The translations under genes were made by a program, and so were the position numbers. A stretch of 64,000 bases of DNA, taken from the NCBI GenBank assembly GCA_013286465.1, contig JABDFR010000004.1, forward strand, positions 1 through 64,000. The letters are read 5' to 3'. The notes under the pieces are model-generated. The model saw only the letters and a program-made list of their open reading frames with translations. It did not search any database and was not told where the DNA came from. This stretch comes from Acidobacteriota bacterium (GTDB lineage: Bacteria; Acidobacteriota; Terriglobia; Acidiferrales; UBA7541). This document shows, piece by piece, positions 39,277 to 47,152 of this stretch. The stretch's first letter is position 1; each line of letters opens with the position of its first letter.

Positions 39277-40293
39277 ATGAGCGACGTTCGCGACCCAGAA
39301 AACGACACGGCTGAAAATTTGACATTCGCCGTAGGCGACGAAGACGCCGGAACGCGTCTAGATCGTTTCCTCGCTACGCGCGCCAGCGAACTCAGCCGCA
39401 CGCGCATTCAGGAACTAATCGCCGAAGGCCGCGTCAGCGTCAATGGCGTAGTGACCAAGCCCTCCCATCGTGTCGAGTCCGGGGAAAAAATCGCAATCGA
39501 AGTCCCCGAATCTGAAGGCACCGACGTCGTCCCCGAAGAAATGCCGCTCGATGTGCTCTATGAAGACGACGATCTCGCCGTAGTCAACAAGCCCGCAGGC
39601 ATCGCCGTTCATCCAGGCGCAGGCGAATCCTCCGGCACGCTCGTCAGCGCGTTGCTCTATCGCTTCGGCACTCTCTCAGCGATCGGCGGACCGCGGCGCC
39701 CAGGAATCGTGCATCGTCTCGACAAAGGCACATCGGGCGCGCTGGTAATTGCGCGCACGGACGAAGCGCATCGCGGCCTCGTCGAACAATTTCAAGAACG
39801 CCTGATCGAAAAGACTTATGTAGCGCTATTGCACGGCAAAATGCGCGAACAATCCGGTCGCATCGAGCTTCCAGTCGCCCGCGATCTCCGCCGCCGCACC
39901 CGCATGACCACCCGCCGCCGCGACGGCCGCACCGCCCGCACCGACTGGGCCGCCAAACTTTTCCTTGGCGCCTTCACGCTAATCGAAGCCGATCTGCACA
40001 CCGGCCGCACGCATCAGCTCCGCGTACATTTCTCCTCGCTAGGATTTCCGGTAATCGGCGACGCGCTCTACGGCGCCCCGCGCATCGAAACCGTTCACGG
40101 CACGCAACTCCCCGATCTCGGCCGCAATTTCCTCCATGCCGCTCGCATCCGCTTCGCGCACCCAATCACCGGCGAGCCGCTCGACGTGCGCGCCCCGCTC
40201 CCAGCCGAACTCAAGGTCTACATCGACGCACTCGGCCGCGCTCTCTCGGCAGACCCCGCTCCGATTGACGCTGCGCTCGCGGCGTACCTATAA
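39277..40293 (+). CDS. RluA-family pseudouridine synthase (RluD-like)
   Basis: 338 residues: an N-terminal S4 RNA-binding domain (about 20-85, TRLDRFLATR...RIQELIAEGRVSVNG) and a RluA-type catalytic domain with VVNKPAGIAVHPGAG and HRLDKGTSGALVIA carrying the catalytic aspartate. It would isomerise uridines in 23S rRNA, probably at RluD-type sites. ATG 39277 begins one base after the lgt stop codon. The C-terminal third of the domain is unusually Arg-rich (DLRRRTRMTTRRRDGR). Confidence 0.88.
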   Translation: MSDVRDPENDTAENLTFAVGDEDAGTRLDRFLATRASELSRTRIQELIAEGRVSVNGVVTKPSHRVESGEKIAIEVPESEGTDVVPEEMPLDVLYEDDDLAVVNKPAGIAVHPGAGESSGTLVSALLYRFGTLSAIGGPRRPGIVHRLDKGTSGALVIARTDEAHRGLVEQFQERLIEKTYVALLHGKMREQSGRIELPVARDLRRRTRMTTRRRDGRTARTDWAAKLFLGAFTLIEADLHTGRTHQLRVHFSSLGFPVIGDALYGAPRIETVHGTQLPDLGRNFLHAARIRFAHPITGEPLDVRAPLPAELKVYIDALGRALSADPAPIDAALAAYL

Positions 40294-40300
40294 TTTCGTC

Positions 40301-41344
40301 ATGCCCAAGCTGAAGCGATTAATCCTGCTGCCAGTATTGATCGCCGCCTTCGCGTCCACCGCGCCAGCGCAGAACCCGCCTCCGCCAGCGCCGCCGCCCG
40401 CAGGCGCCACGGACCAACAGAATCAGGCGCCGCCAGGGCAACAACCGCTGAAAGTCACCTCAGGCCTGGTCCATCTCGTTGCCGCCGTGTCCGATCGTCG
40501 CCACAATTTCATCACCGATCTCGACAAGCAAGATTTTAAAATCATGGAAGACGGCAAGCCGCAGACCATTCAATTCTTCGGCCGCGAAACCGATCTCCCT
40601 CTGCGCATCGCCATGCTGCTCGACACCTCTAACAGCATCCGCGAACGCCTGCATTTTGAAAAAGACGCGGCAACGGATTTTTTGGCCAACGTGATCCGCC
40701 GCAACAAAGACATGGCCTTCCTGATGACTTTCGATAACGAGCCGGAAGTAATTCAGGATTGGTCAGGCGACGCCAGCACGCTCACCGAAGCAATTCAAAA
40801 ACAGCGCGCCGGCGGCGGCACATCTTTCAATGACGCGATCTACGTGGCCGCGCAAAAGCTTGCAAAAGCCCCGCTACCCGCTGGCGCCGATCAGGAAGTG
40901 CGCCGCGTTCTGGTAGTCTTCAGCGACGGCGAGGACAACCTAAGCGATCGCGCTCTGAGCGACGCCATCGAAATGGCCGAGCGCTCCGAAGTAGCCGTCT
41001 ATTCCATCAGCACCAGCACCGAATGGCTCGCCACCGAGACCAGCGACAAACCCCGCAAACTTTTCGAAACCCCCGGCGACAAAATACTGCAAACTCTGGC
41101 GAACGAAACCGGCGGCCGCGTTTTCTTTCCCTACAAGGTAGATGATCTAGCAGTCTCGTTCCAGGACATCGGCACCGAGCTGCGCAGCCAATATTTCATA
41201 GCCTACGCCCCCACCAACCCGCTCCAAAACGGCCAGTACCGAAAGATTCAAGTGGATGTAGATCGCAAAGGGCTGGTAGTGCGAACGCGGAAGGGATATT
41301 ACGCCGTAGCGCCCAGCGCCGGGCCGTATTCTAAAACGCAGTAG
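40301..41344 (+). CDS. Secreted VWFA-related protein (acidobacterial type), copy 1
   Basis: 347 residues with a signal peptide (MPKLKRLILLPVLIAAFASTAPAQ), a Pro/Gln-rich linker, a short N-terminal beta region (LVHLVAAVSDRRHNFITDLDKQDFKIMEDGKPQTIQFF) and a von Willebrand A domain with an intact metal site DTSNS. It ends SQYFIAYAPTNPLQNGQYRKIQVDV..RKGYYA, the hallmark of the acidobacterial VWFA-related family (TIGR03436 type). Probably a periplasmic or surface metal-dependent protein-binding domain. Its partner is unknown. Start ATG 40301, 7 bp after the pseudouridine synthase gene. Confidence 0.85.
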   Translation: MPKLKRLILLPVLIAAFASTAPAQNPPPPAPPPAGATDQQNQAPPGQQPLKVTSGLVHLVAAVSDRRHNFITDLDKQDFKIMEDGKPQTIQFFGRETDLPLRIAMLLDTSNSIRERLHFEKDAATDFLANVIRRNKDMAFLMTFDNEPEVIQDWSGDASTLTEAIQKQRAGGGTSFNDAIYVAAQKLAKAPLPAGADQEVRRVLVVFSDGEDNLSDRALSDAIEMAERSEVAVYSISTSTEWLATETSDKPRKLFETPGDKILQTLANETGGRVFFPYKVDDLAVSFQDIGTELRSQYFIAYAPTNPLQNGQYRKIQVDVDRKGLVVRTRKGYYAVAPSAGPYSKTQ

Positions 41345-41364
41345 CCTTTAAAGAAGATCTTCGT

Positions 41365-42435
41365 TCATTCCGTCGGTGAGTAATAGCCGCGGCGGCAAAG
41401 AATCTTCAAATCCGGCCGGTTGACCTCAACTTTAATTTTCCGAAACGATCCGTCGTGTTTGGGATTCGTCGGATAGTAGCCCAGCACGTACTGCTGCCGC
41501 AGCTCCTCAGAAAGCTCGTCAAACGCTTTCTCCAGCGAATTATTATTGTGCACTTCAATCACGCGCCCGCCCGTTTCATCCGCCATCTTCTTAGCCACGC
41601 TGGCGCCGCTATACCCAGAAAATTGGCGGTAATAAAATCCCACATCCGAAATCAGCAGCACATGTACCACCGCATCCGACCGCTGCGCCGCCTCAATCGC
41701 ATCCTGCACTTTCAATTTGCTGCCGGTATCCTCGGCGTCGGTCAGCGCGATGATCGCCTTGCGTCCCGCCTCGCCGGTCAGCTTGTCGTGCGCCGCCAAA
41801 TAAACCGCATCGTAAAAATCCGTCCCGCCGTTCGATCCGCTCGGCACTGTTCCCGTGGTGCCGCCCGCGCCAGAGCCATCTACATTGATCACCGTCTTGC
41901 GGATCGCGTTTTCGAGCAAATTCTTGTCTTCGGTAAAATCCGCCAGCAAATCGATATCCAGGTCAAAGCTCATCACCAGCGCTTCGTCTGTTTTGCGCAG
42001 CACTCGATTCACGAATCGCGTCGCAGCATCCTGCTCCGCTCCGAGCACGTCCACCTGGCTGCCGCTGGTATCCACTAAAATCGCCAGCGAAATCGGCAGA
42101 TTTACTTCCTTCGAGAAGTACGCAACTTTCTGCTCTTGCCCATCTTCAAATATCTTGAAGTCGTCTTGCTTGAGGTTATTGATCAGAAAATGGCTTTTGT
42201 CGCGCACGGTGGTAAACACGTTGACGAGAGCCGTCTGCACTTTCAGCGTCTGCCCCGATTGCGGCACTTGCTTATTCTGCTGCGAGTCCTGGCTGTTCGG
42301 CGGCGCGCCGCTCTGCTGGCTCTGCGCCGTAAAGCGCGTAGGCCCAGCTCCACTGGCGGGAGCGTGGCCGGGCAACAGCAATCCTGTAGTTATCGTTAAG
42401 ATGGCGAGGGTCGAGCGAAACAGAGGGCGCTGCAT
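41365..42435 (-). CDS. Secreted VWFA-related protein (acidobacterial type), copy 2
   Basis: 356 residues on the opposite strand between two relatives. The signal peptide is followed by a Gln/Ser-rich linker, TVRDKSHFLINNLKQDDFKIFEDGQEQKVAYFSKE, and a VWA domain with intact DTSGS metal site. The end QYVLGYYPTNPKHDGSFRKIKVEV..RRGYYS matches the family. ATG 42435 follows GGAGAA. It is divergent from copy 3 and shares a 138-bp control region that contains a perfect 16-bp dyad. Confidence 0.85.
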   Translation of the reverse strand: MQRPLFRSTLAILTITTGLLLPGHAPASGAGPTRFTAQSQQSGAPPNSQDSQQNKQVPQSGQTLKVQTALVNVFTTVRDKSHFLINNLKQDDFKIFEDGQEQKVAYFSKEVNLPISLAILVDTSGSQVDVLGAEQDAATRFVNRVLRKTDEALVMSFDLDIDLLADFTEDKNLLENAIRKTVINVDGSGAGGTTGTVPSGSNGGTDFYDAVYLAAHDKLTGEAGRKAIIALTDAEDTGSKLKVQDAIEAAQRSDAVVHVLLISDVGFYYRQFSGYSGASVAKKMADETGGRVIEVHNNNSLEKAFDELSEELRQQYVLGYYPTNPKHDGSFRKIKVEVNRPDLKILCRRGYYSPTE

Positions 42436-42470
42436 GTATAATTTCTCCGGAAAGCGATTCCTGTCCTACG

Positions 42471-42486
42471 ATGCAACTTGTTGCAT
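42471..42486. promoter_or_regulatory. Perfect dyad between divergent VWA genes, possible operator
   Basis: ATGCAACTTGTTGCAT: 7-bp arms around TT, 36 bases upstream of the minus-strand gene and about 88 bases upstream of the plus-strand gene. A second hairpin, CCGAAGC-CGA-GCTTCGG (42536-42552), lies in the presumed leader of the plus-strand gene. Confidence 0.4.
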
Positions 42487-42573
42487 TTCGGATGCGTCAC
42501 ACGCCACGAGACTAAACGGGCGGGCGCCTCACCGGCCGAAGCCGAGCTTCGGTCCGCAAGGATGGCACTGATT

Positions 42574-43713
42574 ATGAAGCAACTCTTGGCGCTGGCGCTA
42601 GTCGCGGGACTTGCAAGCACGCTCGGCGCAACGCCGCGAGCGCAATCCGGTTCGCAGCCGCCAACGCAAGACCCCGCGCCGCCTCCCGCGCAACAAGATC
42701 AGCAATCCGGCGGCCAGCAACCTCAGCCAAAGGAAACGCCGCCGGCACAAACCCAATCAAACGTGCCGCCTCCGCAGGCGTCCAATGTTCCGTCGGCCCG
42801 CGTGCTCCGTTCGCGAACCGAATTAGTGCCCGTACCCGTGACGGTAAAAAATTCGCGCGGCGAACTGGTCCCCGATTTGACAAAAGATGATTTCCGCGTC
42901 TTCGAAGACGGCAAAGAACAGAACATCGCGCTTTTTTCCACAGACGCCTTTCCGCTTTCCCTAGTAGTCGTGCTGGACAACGATCTCACTGTAAAAACGC
43001 GCGACCAGGTCCAGAAGAGTCTCGACAGCATCGCCGGCGGCCTCGGCCCAGCCGATGAAGCCGCGGTCATTCTCTACGATCAATTTCCCCAGCCGGCCAT
43101 CGATTTCACCGCCGACAACGACACCATGCTCACAAAACTGCATCGCCTCCGCCTCGGCGAAAGTTTTCCCGGAGATTTTGGCGGCCCGATGGATGCCGGC
43201 GCGACGGTCAATAATCAACAGATAGGTCCCGGCGTGAAGGTTTATGGCAAGGGACAGGAAAAAGTGACCAAGGATCTCGATGATGCCATGCACGCCGCCG
43301 GCGAACTGCTACGCGCGCGCGGCCGCGATCGACGCAAAGTCATCTGCCTGATTTCCGATGGACAAAACTCCCATCACAATCGCTGGAGCTACGCCCAAGT
43401 TCTTCAGCTCCTGCTCACCTCCGATATTTCCGTCTACACGGTCACGGTAGGCACGGTGTTGCTCAAGCACGAGCCCGGCCGCATGACCCATTACGCCAAC
43501 GACACCGGCGGCGATTCTTTCTTCGCTTCGAAGCAAGCCGATCTCGAGCGACTCTATTCCGCCATCGGCGAGCAAGCCCGCAATCAATACACGCTAGCCT
43601 ACGCCCCGCAAAATCCCGGCATCGGTGATTACCATACGATCGAAGTCCGCGTAGAGCGCCCGGGCCTGCAAGTAAGTTCCCGCCAAGGCTATTACGCCTC
43701 AGCAAAACGCTGA
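42574..43713 (+). CDS. Secreted VWFA-related protein with degenerate metal site, copy 3
   Basis: 379 residues: signal peptide (MKQLLALALVAGLASTLGATPRAQ), a long Pro/Gln-rich linker (about 25-75), LVPVPVTVKNSRGELVPDLTKDDFRVFEDGKEQNIALF, then a VWA-like domain. Where copies 1 and 2 have DTSNS and DTSGS, this protein reads DNDLT, so the DxSxS metal-coordination motif is lost. The family ending NQYTLAYAPQNPGIGDYHTIEVRV..RQGYYA is intact. ATG 42574 has an AAGGA upstream. ATG 42562 is an alternative. It may bind ligand without metal or act as a structural partner of the other two. Confidence 0.8.
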   Translation: MKQLLALALVAGLASTLGATPRAQSGSQPPTQDPAPPPAQQDQQSGGQQPQPKETPPAQTQSNVPPPQASNVPSARVLRSRTELVPVPVTVKNSRGELVPDLTKDDFRVFEDGKEQNIALFSTDAFPLSLVVVLDNDLTVKTRDQVQKSLDSIAGGLGPADEAAVILYDQFPQPAIDFTADNDTMLTKLHRLRLGESFPGDFGGPMDAGATVNNQQIGPGVKVYGKGQEKVTKDLDDAMHAAGELLRARGRDRRKVICLISDGQNSHHNRWSYAQVLQLLLTSDISVYTVTVGTVLLKHEPGRMTHYANDTGGDSFFASKQADLERLYSAIGEQARNQYTLAYAPQNPGIGDYHTIEVRVERPGLQVSSRQGYYASAKR

Positions 43714-43802: not shown

Positions 43803-43831
43803 TTGACAGGATTCCCGCGCACTCGTATTAA
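43803..43831 (+). promoter_or_regulatory. Strong sigma-70-type promoter for a small RNA
   Basis: TTGACA (43803-43808) and TATTAA (43826-43831) with a 17-base spacer: a perfect -35 and a near-perfect -10, the best promoter match in the window. No protein gene follows on this strand for over 3 kb. Confidence 0.65.
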
Positions 43832-43837
43832 GGGTGT

Positions 43838-44006
43838 GAAGGGAAGTGGCGCGAATAAATTTTCCGCTGCCGCGCCTTCAGGGGAGACAGCATCAAGCAG
43901 TAGATGCGCGCCGTTGAATTAGGGGGTGGAGCGGCGGCGAGGCCGTTCCGATCAACTGGTTCTCCGAACGAGGCGGTTGCGAAAGCAATCGCCTCGTTTT
44001 GTTTTT
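43838..44006 (+). ncRNA. Candidate stand-alone small RNA of about 170 nt, family unknown
   Basis: Bounded by a consensus promoter (-10 at 43826-43831) and a 13-bp intrinsic terminator followed by TTTGTTTTT. Between them the sequence can form several hairpins: GGCGCG with CGCGCC (about 43847-43882), GCATC-AAGCAGTA-GATGC (about 43894-43912) and CGGC with GCCG (about 43931-43945). It lies between a VWA gene and the convergent helicase. A 58-codon frame from ATG 43909 reads through the terminator and into a repeat and does not look like a protein. I see no SRP RNA helix-8 signature. A divergent 6S RNA or a lineage-specific RNA motif cannot be excluded. Confidence 0.5.
43968..44006 (+). terminator. 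Intrinsic terminator of the candidate small RNA
   Basis: ACGAGGCGGTTGC, GAAA loop, GCAATCGCCTCGT: 13 pairs including one G-U, then TTTGTTTTT. The opposite strand lacks a T-run after the stem, so it works only for plus-strand transcription. Confidence 0.85.
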
Positions 44007-44066: not shown

Positions 44067-47000
44067 TTAGCCGCTGAGGTCCGTCTTAATTTCTCGTGCC
44101 GGCCGAATCGTAACAAACTGCTCATGCGCCGGACACAAAGCCTGAAAATCACAAAACCCGCAAACAAACCCAGGCTTAGCAGGATATTCCCCAGCCCGAA
44201 TTAAATCCGCGGTAGTAGCCACGGTCTCACGAGCTTTAGCCAGCGATTTCTCATCGCGTGAAGAACTAACCGCCTCATTGGTAGTCAAATTATAAAAAGT
44301 AAGCCGCGCCGGAGTCAGGTCCAGCACATCGCGCGCAGCCAGCGCATAAAGACTCAACTGCAAGCTAGTATCCGCATCCTTCTGCGATTTCGGCCGCCCC
44401 GTCTTGTAATCCACCACTTCAACATCATCGCCCGCGATCCGGTTCACCTGATCGATGCGCCCCAGCACCGTCACATCTTTCTCCATCGGCAATTCAAAGC
44501 GCTTCTCCTGCATCAAGACGTCCGCTGGCGCCGCCGAATAAGTCTTGTGAAACGCGCCCAGCTTCTCAATCCCTTCCTTCTTGTATTCCTCTTCCTGATA
44601 ATCGTCGAGATAACCAGCCGGCGACCAAAACCGGTCGTAAATCGCCGACACTTCCTCAAAATCCACTTTCTTCCGTTTTTTAACTTCCGCAACAAATTCC
44701 TTAATCGTGCTATGCATCACGTTGCCAAAAGTCATCTGCGCCGCCGGCCCGCCGCGCAATTCCCACACCGCGCTGAACAAAAATTTCTTCGGGCACATCT
44801 GATAAGTCTCAATCGCCGAAGCGCTCAATTGCAGCGGCTCGGGACGCGGCGGCTTATATGCATTGGCCCAAATCGCCACACGCGAATACGCCTTCGCCTT
44901 TTCCGGCGCCGCGCTAAAGAGCATCGGCCGCGAAGCGTCGGCCGAAGACGATCCCACCGTCTCCTCGCGTTCCGGCACGACCACCTGCGGCACAATCTGC
45001 TGAATATCCAATTTCTGAATCTTGGCGTCGCCCAGCACCTCATCGAAAAACTCCGAGCGTTTCTTGCGCTTGTTGATGATCGTAGAAAGCGTCAGCATGC
45101 GCCGCCCGCGGGTCAGCGCCACATAGAATAGCCGCCGCTCCTCCAGCTTCTGATAATCGCCCTCCGGCTGCTCCTCCTTCAGCAACTGCGCCGGAAATTC
45201 AAAAACCGGCCGCCGCACTCCGGAAGGGAAGTCGCCCTTGCAGAGATGCAAAATAAACACATGCGGGAATTCCAGGCCCTTTGCCGAATGCACGGTCATC
45301 AGTTGCACCGCATCGTGCACCGGTTCTTTCTGCAAAAAAATATCGCCATTCGCTTCATCGAAGAAATTCAAGTAGCCAAGAAAATCATGCAGCGAGCGGC
45401 CTTCTTTCTTCTGCCACTCCTCCACGAAATCTTTGAGCCGCGCCAGATTGTAGGAATCCATATCGGCGGCGACCGGAGCGACGCCGATCTCGGCAATCAG
45501 TTCAGCAAGCAGCTCAAACGCCGTCAATTTTCTCGCCCGTCCGCGCATTTCCCCGATGAACGCCGCAAGTTCCCGCGCTCGCGATTCCTTCGGTGGTCCC
45601 GCCCCAGCCGGTTCCTTGCACCAAGTTTCAAATTCATCCCAAAGCGATTTGCCTCTGCTCTTCGCCGCGCGCTCCGCCAAACGCACCAAATCCTTCGGCT
45701 CAATCTTCCAGTAGGGAATACCGATAATGCGCGCGCACGAAACGTCATCCGAAGGCGTGCCGATCAATCGCAGATAAGCCATCACGTCGCGAATCAACGT
45801 GCTCCCCAAAATCGAAAGACGCTTGATCACGTAAGGAATCTGCCGCCGGTTCAGCGCCTCAACCAAATGCTTGCGATGCGTATGCTTTCGGTAAAGCGCC
45901 GCAAACTCGCGCCATTCCGTTCCCGCGGCGTGCAGCCGGTCGATTTCGCCGGCCACCCACTCGGCTTCTTCTTCAGGCCGCCCAAATTCAGCGATGCGAA
46001 TTTTGTCGCCCTCGGAATTTTGAGTGACCAGCGGAGTAAACGGAATAAATCTCGAATTATCGCTTTCCGCCGCCACCGTTCCAGCCACGCGCAAAATCCG
46101 TTTGGTCGAGCGGTAATTCTGCGTCAGATGCACACGCGGCCAACTCGACTCCGGCGAATCCACAGACACGCCGCAAAATCGCGTGAGAAATTGCTTCAAG
46201 CTCGCAAACGAAGCCCCGCGAAATCGGTAAATCGCCTGATTGTGATCGCCGACCACGAACAAATTGCGCCGATCGTTCATCAAAAGCTGCAGCAACTCAA
46301 GCTGCGCAATATTCGTATCCTGAAACTCGTCCACCAAAATGTAACGATAGCGCTCCCGCAAACGCGCCAGCAGCGCCGCATTCGATCGCAGCATCTGCAC
46401 CGCCTGCATCAGCATCGCCCCGAAGGTGACCATCTTCCGCTCGCGCAGCAATCCCTCGCTGACGCGATACGCCCGCGCCAATTCCTCCTCCCGAGCCAAA
46501 ATCTCATCCTGAATTTTCTGCGCGTCCGGCTCCATCTGCCCGCGCCGCGCCTTCATCTCCGCGCGCATCGCCGCCACGTAACGGTCGTAATCCTCCGGCG
46601 AAACCAGCTCATCCTGGCACCGCGAAAAAAAAGCCACGAAGTCATTCAGGAATTCACCAGGATCGGCCAGCCGCCGGAAAAGATTCAATTCCAGCTGCCG
46701 GATATTCCGCCGCAGCAGAATCCAGTGATCGAAATTGTCGAGCGCCCGCAGCTCAGGATCGGCTTCCAGCAAAATCGCATTGCAGAATGAATGAAACGTG
46801 CTCAGCGTCACGGCATTCGCCCGCTCGCCCACGTGCTTCTTGATCCGCCACTTCATTTCCTCGGCAGCTTTATCAGTGAAGGTAAGCCCAAGAATGCTTT
46901 CACCCTTAAGTTCCGGATCGCTCTCAAGCAGCAAACGAATGCGCTCAGTAATCACGCGAGTCTTGCCGGTGCCAGCTCCGGCGACGACGAGCAAGGGCCC

Positions 47001-47090
47001 GTCCCCATGCTCCACAGCGCGTAGCTGCTCCGGATTCAATTCGATCTCTGCGGTTTGCGATGTGCGTCTAGCCATGCGCGAGAACTTCAT
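44067..47090 (-). CDS. UvrD/Rep-type ATP-dependent helicase fused to a PD-(D/E)XK nuclease
   Basis: About 1007 residues. The SF1A helicase begins ELNPEQLRAVEHGDGPLLVVAGAGTGKTRVITERI (Q motif and Walker A). Then come LGLTFTDKAAEEMKWR, ILVDEFQDTNIAQLELLQLL (motif II), VGDHNQAIYRFRGAS, LTQNYRST, VHSAKGLEFPHVFI and LFYVALTRGRRML (motif VI). The last 280 residues are a RecB/AddB-type nuclease: LSASAIETYQMCPKKFLF, EVVDYKTGRPK with the catalytic D..DYK, LSLYALAARDVL, and a cysteine set ending CGFCDFQALCPAH typical of an iron-sulphur nuclease. It probably acts in double-strand-break repair. Start ATG 47090 or ATG 47075. No addB-like partner is adjacent. The last residues (TDLSG) and stop come from a dispersed repeat. 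Confidence 0.9.
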   Translation of the reverse strand: MKFSRMARRTSQTAEIELNPEQLRAVEHGDGPLLVVAGAGTGKTRVITERIRLLLESDPELKGESILGLTFTDKAAEEMKWRIKKHVGERANAVTLSTFHSFCNAILLEADPELRALDNFDHWILLRRNIRQLELNLFRRLADPGEFLNDFVAFFSRCQDELVSPEDYDRYVAAMRAEMKARRGQMEPDAQKIQDEILAREEELARAYRVSEGLLRERKMVTFGAMLMQAVQMLRSNAALLARLRERYRYILVDEFQDTNIAQLELLQLLMNDRRNLFVVGDHNQAIYRFRGASFASLKQFLTRFCGVSVDSPESSWPRVHLTQNYRSTKRILRVAGTVAAESDNSRFIPFTPLVTQNSEGDKIRIAEFGRPEEEAEWVAGEIDRLHAAGTEWREFAALYRKHTHRKHLVEALNRRQIPYVIKRLSILGSTLIRDVMAYLRLIGTPSDDVSCARIIGIPYWKIEPKDLVRLAERAAKSRGKSLWDEFETWCKEPAGAGPPKESRARELAAFIGEMRGRARKLTAFELLAELIAEIGVAPVAADMDSYNLARLKDFVEEWQKKEGRSLHDFLGYLNFFDEANGDIFLQKEPVHDAVQLMTVHSAKGLEFPHVFILHLCKGDFPSGVRRPVFEFPAQLLKEEQPEGDYQKLEERRLFYVALTRGRRMLTLSTIINKRKKRSEFFDEVLGDAKIQKLDIQQIVPQVVVPEREETVGSSSADASRPMLFSAAPEKAKAYSRVAIWANAYKPPRPEPLQLSASAIETYQMCPKKFLFSAVWELRGGPAAQMTFGNVMHSTIKEFVAEVKKRKKVDFEEVSAIYDRFWSPAGYLDDYQEEEYKKEGIEKLGAFHKTYSAAPADVLMQEKRFELPMEKDVTVLGRIDQVNRIAGDDVEVVDYKTGRPKSQKDADTSLQLSLYALAARDVLDLTPARLTFYNLTTNEAVSSSRDEKSLAKARETVATTADLIRAGEYPAKPGFVCGFCDFQALCPAHEQFVTIRPAREIKTDLSG

Positions 47091-47152
47091 CGTAGCCGAT
47101 TTTTCCCCACTGGAGTAGAGTCGCAACAGGCCGCAAATTCAAGGCAGGAAAA

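Follow-up and report, generated by a model that had tools for sequence, protein, structure and literature searches.

RosA is a sponge of the small RNA (sRNA) RoxS in Bacillus subtilis and may encode a tiny open reading frame (ORF) of seven residues, and RsaI is described with RsaE in Staphylococcus aureus (PMC8216469). Dual-function sRNAs, which also encode a small protein, include VcdRP (PMC8672173) and SgrS (PMC4021124). Here, we analyzed a locus in a 64,000-nt stretch of DNA from a soil-type acidobacterium (the window) and the RNA it specifies, RNA1. Like RosA and RsaI, RNA1 is a free-standing small RNA whose G-rich segments match the C-rich part of a partner RNA, here called RNA2, and the possible tiny ORF of RosA is a further likeness to the RNA1 family. 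However, the RNA1/RNA2 pair shares no Rfam family with RosA, comes from a different phylum, and makes two specific contacts, one of them in a hairpin loop; RNA1 also appears to descend from a conserved micropeptide mRNA, and its role as a sponge is putative. VcdRP and SgrS resemble RNA1 in that one short transcript carries a small ORF as well as a segment for base pairing, but in RNA1 the pairing segment lies at the initiation region of the ORF itself, and the ORF appears to have been lost in the window's lineage: the conserved small ORF expected of a dual-function sRNA was found in relatives and was absent from the window's genus. An sRNA that has a sponge or a target RNA belongs to a known class, while the pair looks undescribed; neither the pair, its sequences, nor the descent from a microprotein mRNA was matched in Rfam 15 or in a narrow search of the open-access literature. 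We estimate a probability of about 0.6 that RNA1, a former micropeptide mRNA, is now a peptide-less RNA that pairs with the unlinked RNA2 and most likely serves as its sponge. In sequence, this reading draws on the RNA1 family, the peptide ORF of relatives, an RNA2 with a promoter and terminator of its own, and co-varying complementarity between the two RNAs.

The features of the locus are listed in Table 1. The promoter reported in the first-pass annotation (TTGACA-N17-TATTAA) had a single exact match in the whole window and none in 100 dinucleotide shuffles. The RNA that would be transcribed from it, ~170 nt long, had been described as rich in hairpins, and its predicted fold (−82.4 kcal/mol) was far more stable than those of shuffled sequences (−59.8 ± 4.2 kcal/mol; z = −5.44; 0 of 200 as stable). 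The GAAA-loop terminator was likewise recovered, with TTTGTTTTT following the stem (43966 to 43999), although the 13 bp originally given for that stem was slightly short (14 to 15 bp; 15 pairs including G-T in our scan). Both motifs are intact in the window, and each is partly paired in the predicted fold. The neighboring genes lie as first described, with a VWA-like gene ending upstream and a helicase-nuclease gene converging on the RNA. Three adjacent VWA-domain-like genes (two on the plus strand and one on the minus strand) occupy positions 40136 to 43713 ahead of the RNA. No Rfam 15 family reached its gathering threshold for RNA1, the peptide mRNAs of relatives, or RNA2, no tRNA or tmRNA was found at the window locus, and three permissive Rfam matches in the RNA region look like chance, in agreement with the earlier failure to match a known RNA. 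Judged from its sequence, the interval 43838 to 44006 very probably encodes a small RNA.

Table 1. Features of the RNA1 locus in window coordinates
Feature	Position	Strand	Remark
VWA-domain-like protein gene, upstream neighbor, outside the RNA	42478..43713	+	VWA matches just under Pfam cut-offs
Promoter: TTGACA (43803-43808), 17-nt spacer, TATTAA (43826-43831)	43803..43831	+	0 in 100 shuffles
RNA1 transcript	43838..44006	+	z −5.44; start inferred ~7 nt past the −10 hexamer
5′ hairpin P1, two-part stem GAAGG...CCTTC + GTGGC/GCG...CGC/GCCGC	43839..43879	+	predicted fold; 5′ hairpin of relatives variable
Motif 1, GGGGAGA, exact complement of RNA2 UCUCCCC	43881..43887	+	sequence match
Motif 2, AUGCGCG, exact complement of CGCGCAU in the RNA2 hairpin loop	43904..43910	+	
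Inner hairpin GGAGCGGC-GGCGAG-GCCGTTCC	43928..43949	+	8/8 pairs kept in G001
Rho-independent terminator, GAAA loop, U tract	43966..44006	+	13/14 pairs kept in G001
UvrD-like helicase with PD-(D/E)XK nuclease domain, convergent	44067..47126	−	synteny anchor only

The only other genome of the same genus met in our searches, G001, carries a syntenic RNA1 at 77% identity, with the promoter kept. When the syntenic interval was aligned, one retained pair of the inner hairpin had changed on both sides and two on one side, and in the terminator one pair had changed on both sides and three on one side. Promoter, stems, and terminator persist in G001 with compensatory changes, strongly supporting the independently transcribed, structured RNA of the first-pass annotation; a lack of stem conservation in close relatives, which that annotation had named as a refutation, was not observed. 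A DNA-level search of 61 relatives returned a full match in G001 only, and three short matches (L003 to L005) look like chance; absence of RNA1 from other relatives was nonetheless ruled out by helicase synteny, which exposed further copies. RNA1 was found beside the same helicase gene across one family of Candidatus Acidiferrales (Acidobacteriota), and a VWA-like gene also precedes it in several relatives. When the helicase was used to find relatives, those with names proved to be Candidatus Acidiferrales and other MAGs of Acidobacteria. In other genera (designated g2 and so on below), RNA1 consists of a promoter, a variable 5′ hairpin, GGGGAGA, AUGCGCG, and a terminator; most copies in the various genera keep the promoter TTGAC-N16-CGTA at the syntenic position (variant in g4), and TGCGC is invariant in 26 of 26 aligned copies. 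The RNA1 sequence model R1 matched both G001 and the window's own assembly, G000, with an E value of 5e-11. The sequence-only RNA1 model reached E < 1e-8 in ten genera (g1 to g5, g7, g8, g10, g11, and g13) and gave no match in g6, g9, g12, or other families. The initial label of "orphan" is wrong, given a syntenic family in ten genera, a lysine-rich micropeptide mRNA in several, and a complementary partner RNA.

The peptide ORF was observed in g2, g6, g10, g11, and g13 and in genomes of two other families (G037 of f2 and G041 of f3). It encodes 13 to 18 residues (11 in G037), is equipped with a Shine-Dalgarno sequence, and lies immediately downstream of AUGCGC(G) or, where that is absent, in the corresponding place. 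The peptide is of the MKKKAKKDEKKGPKKGK type, about half lysine. Across ten g6 copies, pN/pS was 0.17 in frame compared to 1.5 and 0.6 in the shifted frames, showing the ORF to be coding. Conserved microproteins of this type were seen at L149 to L161, L147, and L148 (g6, f2, and f3) and at L016, L025, L030, L033, L131, L132, and L167, all with a strong promoter, a Shine-Dalgarno sequence, and a terminator. A narrow search of the open-access literature revealed no precedent for a lysine-rich micropeptide. The ORF was missing from the window's genus, g3, g4, g5, g7, g8, and one g2 genome; in the window's genus, the only long frame has no stop ahead of the terminator. Mapped onto the helicase tree, absence of the lysine ORF requires several changes, so the ORF was probably lost more than once, and the loss is common to the window's relatives g3 and g4. 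At the g2 locus L017, compared with L131 and L132, the AUG is followed by UAG and the Shine-Dalgarno sequence AGGAGA has become AGUUCC, yet AUGCGCG is kept. Two other roles for AUGCGCG were considered and rejected: that of a conserved start codon (neither the frames nor their stops are conserved, and UUGCGCG stands in its place in two genomes) and that of a segment paired within RNA1 (no constant partner was seen).

RNA2 surfaced unsought, when secondary matches of the RNA1 model in g3 and g4 fell at one conserved locus on the opposite strand. It is ~95 nt long and is composed of TTGACT-N17-TA(G/A)ACT, a hairpin with the loop ..CCGCGCAUU.., UUUCUCCCC, and a terminator; 9 of 14 consensus pairs showed double-sided changes among 35 sequences. 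The RNA2 models gave E < 1e-8 in 36 genomes. They found RNA2 in all ten genera with the RNA1 motifs (E = 8e-20 in G001) as well as in f2 and f3 and yielded no convincing copy in g6, g9, or g12, where the motifs are absent. The two genes are unlinked, being on different contigs or far apart. RNA2 was not found by these models in G000 (66% complete), likely owing to an assembly gap. In G005 (97% complete; RNA1 locus L018), RNA2 was not found either and both motifs have drifted (GGGGGGAG and AUUGCGCG), as expected if RNA2 and the motifs are interdependent. Phylum-wide matches of the RNA2 model R3 at 20 to 31 bits were discarded as generic terminator hairpins as far as inspected, as were most other weak matches, except that in G038 at 45 bits, and a promoter pattern found no RNA2 near hfq in g6. 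In f3, the 18-nt RNA1 contact belongs to RNA1 in G041 only, the remaining matches being the RNA2 genes themselves. At the RNA2 loci of g3 and g4 (L203 to L208), the convergent gene encodes a conserved secreted or membrane protein of unknown function, and in g4 a gene for an Hfq-like protein and a glycosyltransferase gene lie a few kilobases from RNA2. Hfq-like proteins are encoded in 35 of 41 family genomes, including G001, making Hfq-assisted pairing of RNA1 with RNA2 possible; no hfq gene was detected in G000, again likely owing to an assembly gap. The Hfq-like matches in the family lie in open frames of ~120 to 150 residues, longer than typical bacterial Hfq.

The two RNAs were compared in 31 genomes that carry both. 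In nearly all of these, their longest perfect antisense match fell on motif 1 or motif 2, and the second contact was collinear and antiparallel with the first. The longest match, 20 nt over the Shine-Dalgarno sequence and start codon, was in G041 (AGGGGAAAGUAGGUAUGGCC); G021 had 16 nt (UUCCGAGGGGAACAGA, its RNA2 having changed to UCUGUUCCCC), and G011 (GGAGCCAAUGCGC) and G037 (GGGAGAGUAGCUC) had 13 nt each. Thus, in the two other families, RNA2 is complementary to the Shine-Dalgarno/start region of the peptide mRNA. G097 pairs GGGAGAGAG with CUCUCUCCC, where its neighbors have GGGAGAAAG with CUUUCUCCC. The cognate G001 pair matched over 9 + 7 nt (co-fold gain, −16.3 kcal/mol; 0 of 60 shuffles as low). 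Because RNA2 was not found in G000, window RNA1 was paired with G001 RNA2 only, matching over 7 + 7 nt (−13.3 kcal/mol; 3 of 60 shuffles as low). When partners were permuted among genera, the observed mean match of 11.02 nt was never equaled (8.37 ± 0.48; 0 of 20,000 as high). The signal weakened as the four strongest genera were removed, from 6 of 20,000 without f2 and f3 to 134 also without g10 and 519 also without g11. Within the peptide-less clade (g1 + g3 + g4), the count was 26 of 20,000, and a within-genus shuffle gave 21 of 20,000 (P about 0.001). These figures are guides and not exact probabilities, since relatedness is only partly controlled; in addition, most matches within the family span 8 to 11 nt around a shared core, so noncognate pairs match well too. 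Overall, RNA1 has the conserved, above-chance complementarity to an sRNA seed region that is expected of a sponge, as judged for the window itself against G001 RNA2 only.

We propose that RNA1 originally served as mRNA for a lysine-rich micropeptide of 13 to 18 residues and that RNA2 bound it at the Shine-Dalgarno/start region, which would have turned translation off; repression is the natural inference wherever RNA2 covers the initiation region of the mRNA. In the window's lineage, the ORF would have been lost while both contact motifs were retained, so that in the cell GGGGAGA would pair with UCUCCCC and AUGCGCG with CGCGCAU in the RNA2 loop. Because the contacts persist and co-vary without the ORF, RNA1 is expected to do more than encode the peptide. 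The most economical such role appears to be titration of RNA2, by analogy to RosA with the C-rich RoxS: as a decoy, RNA1 would draw RNA2 off its other mRNA targets.

The same complementarity would fit the opposite direction, in which RNA1 is itself a trans-acting regulator with GGGGAGA and AUGCGCG as seeds and RNA2 is its target, its sponge, or one half of a mutual pair. The near-consensus promoter and strong terminator of RNA1 agree with such a role. We consider it unlikely, however, since where RNA1 is an mRNA the contact falls on the Shine-Dalgarno sequence and start codon, the usual side of a target, and the layout of a regulator is that of RNA2, which is smaller and presents a hairpin loop and a C-rich single strand. 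Type I toxins are typically hydrophobic membrane peptides. A type I toxin-antitoxin-like origin, with the lysine-rich peptide as toxin, RNA2 as antisense antitoxin, and the window as a toxin-less remnant, would account for an antisense RNA over the Shine-Dalgarno/start region of a very short ORF, an arrangement found in G041 (20 nt) and in G037 and G011 (13 nt) and lacking its peptide in the window. Such an origin is improbable given that the peptides, being short, cationic, and highly hydrophilic, differ from usual type I toxins; that the loci lie apart, where a hydrophobic peptide adjoining its antisense gene would be expected; and that pairing still co-varies where the peptide is gone.

We give comparably little credence to the idea that window RNA1 is the decaying relic of a micropeptide gene, its promoter, motifs, and terminator simply left over. 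The probable repeated loss of the ORF and the state of G005 are consistent with decay, but the window's genus keeps its stems paired by compensatory change with promoter and motifs intact, and co-variation goes on in the peptide-less clade. It is more doubtful still that a new short ORF starting at the motif 2 AUG (MRAVELGGG...RPFRSTGSPNEAVAKAIASFCF) took over from the earlier ORF in the window's genus. The window and G001 share this frame despite a net 9-nt indel, with a pN/pS of 0.39 over 31 codons; however, it has no stop ahead of the terminator in the window, the pN/pS value derives from a small number of changes in a segment that overlaps constrained stems, and other peptide-less genera show within-genus frameshifts, with UUG for AUG in two genomes. 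Finally, the layout of an independently transcribed, structured RNA would suit a familiar housekeeping RNA (6S, SRP, RNase P, or Acido-1) that has diverged beyond recognition by Rfam. This is scarcely credible, as 6S RNA (RF00013) had no covariance match at the locus and lies elsewhere in G001 (on another contig) and in 30 other family genomes, no above-threshold Rfam match was found here or in relatives, and the locus is an mRNA in relatives.

Whether the pair extends across the order, as a trans-acting sRNA and a lysine-rich microprotein mRNA whose ORF was repeatedly lost while the mRNA was kept as a sponge of its former repressor, we regard as an evenly balanced question. If true, a change from coding to noncoding RNA would be seen here at several stages. 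Acidobacteriota are an abundant, mostly uncultured phylum, and a 2022 review lists only four distinct annotated sRNAs for Acidobacteria (PMC9029176); a family-wide sRNA with a co-varying partner would thus be a rare entry point to regulation in this group. Among related genomes, the locus takes the form of a coding mRNA, of an mRNA that bears the contact site for the sRNA, or of an RNA that lacks the peptide but retains this site, states that would allow a test of how an mRNA turns into a regulatory RNA.
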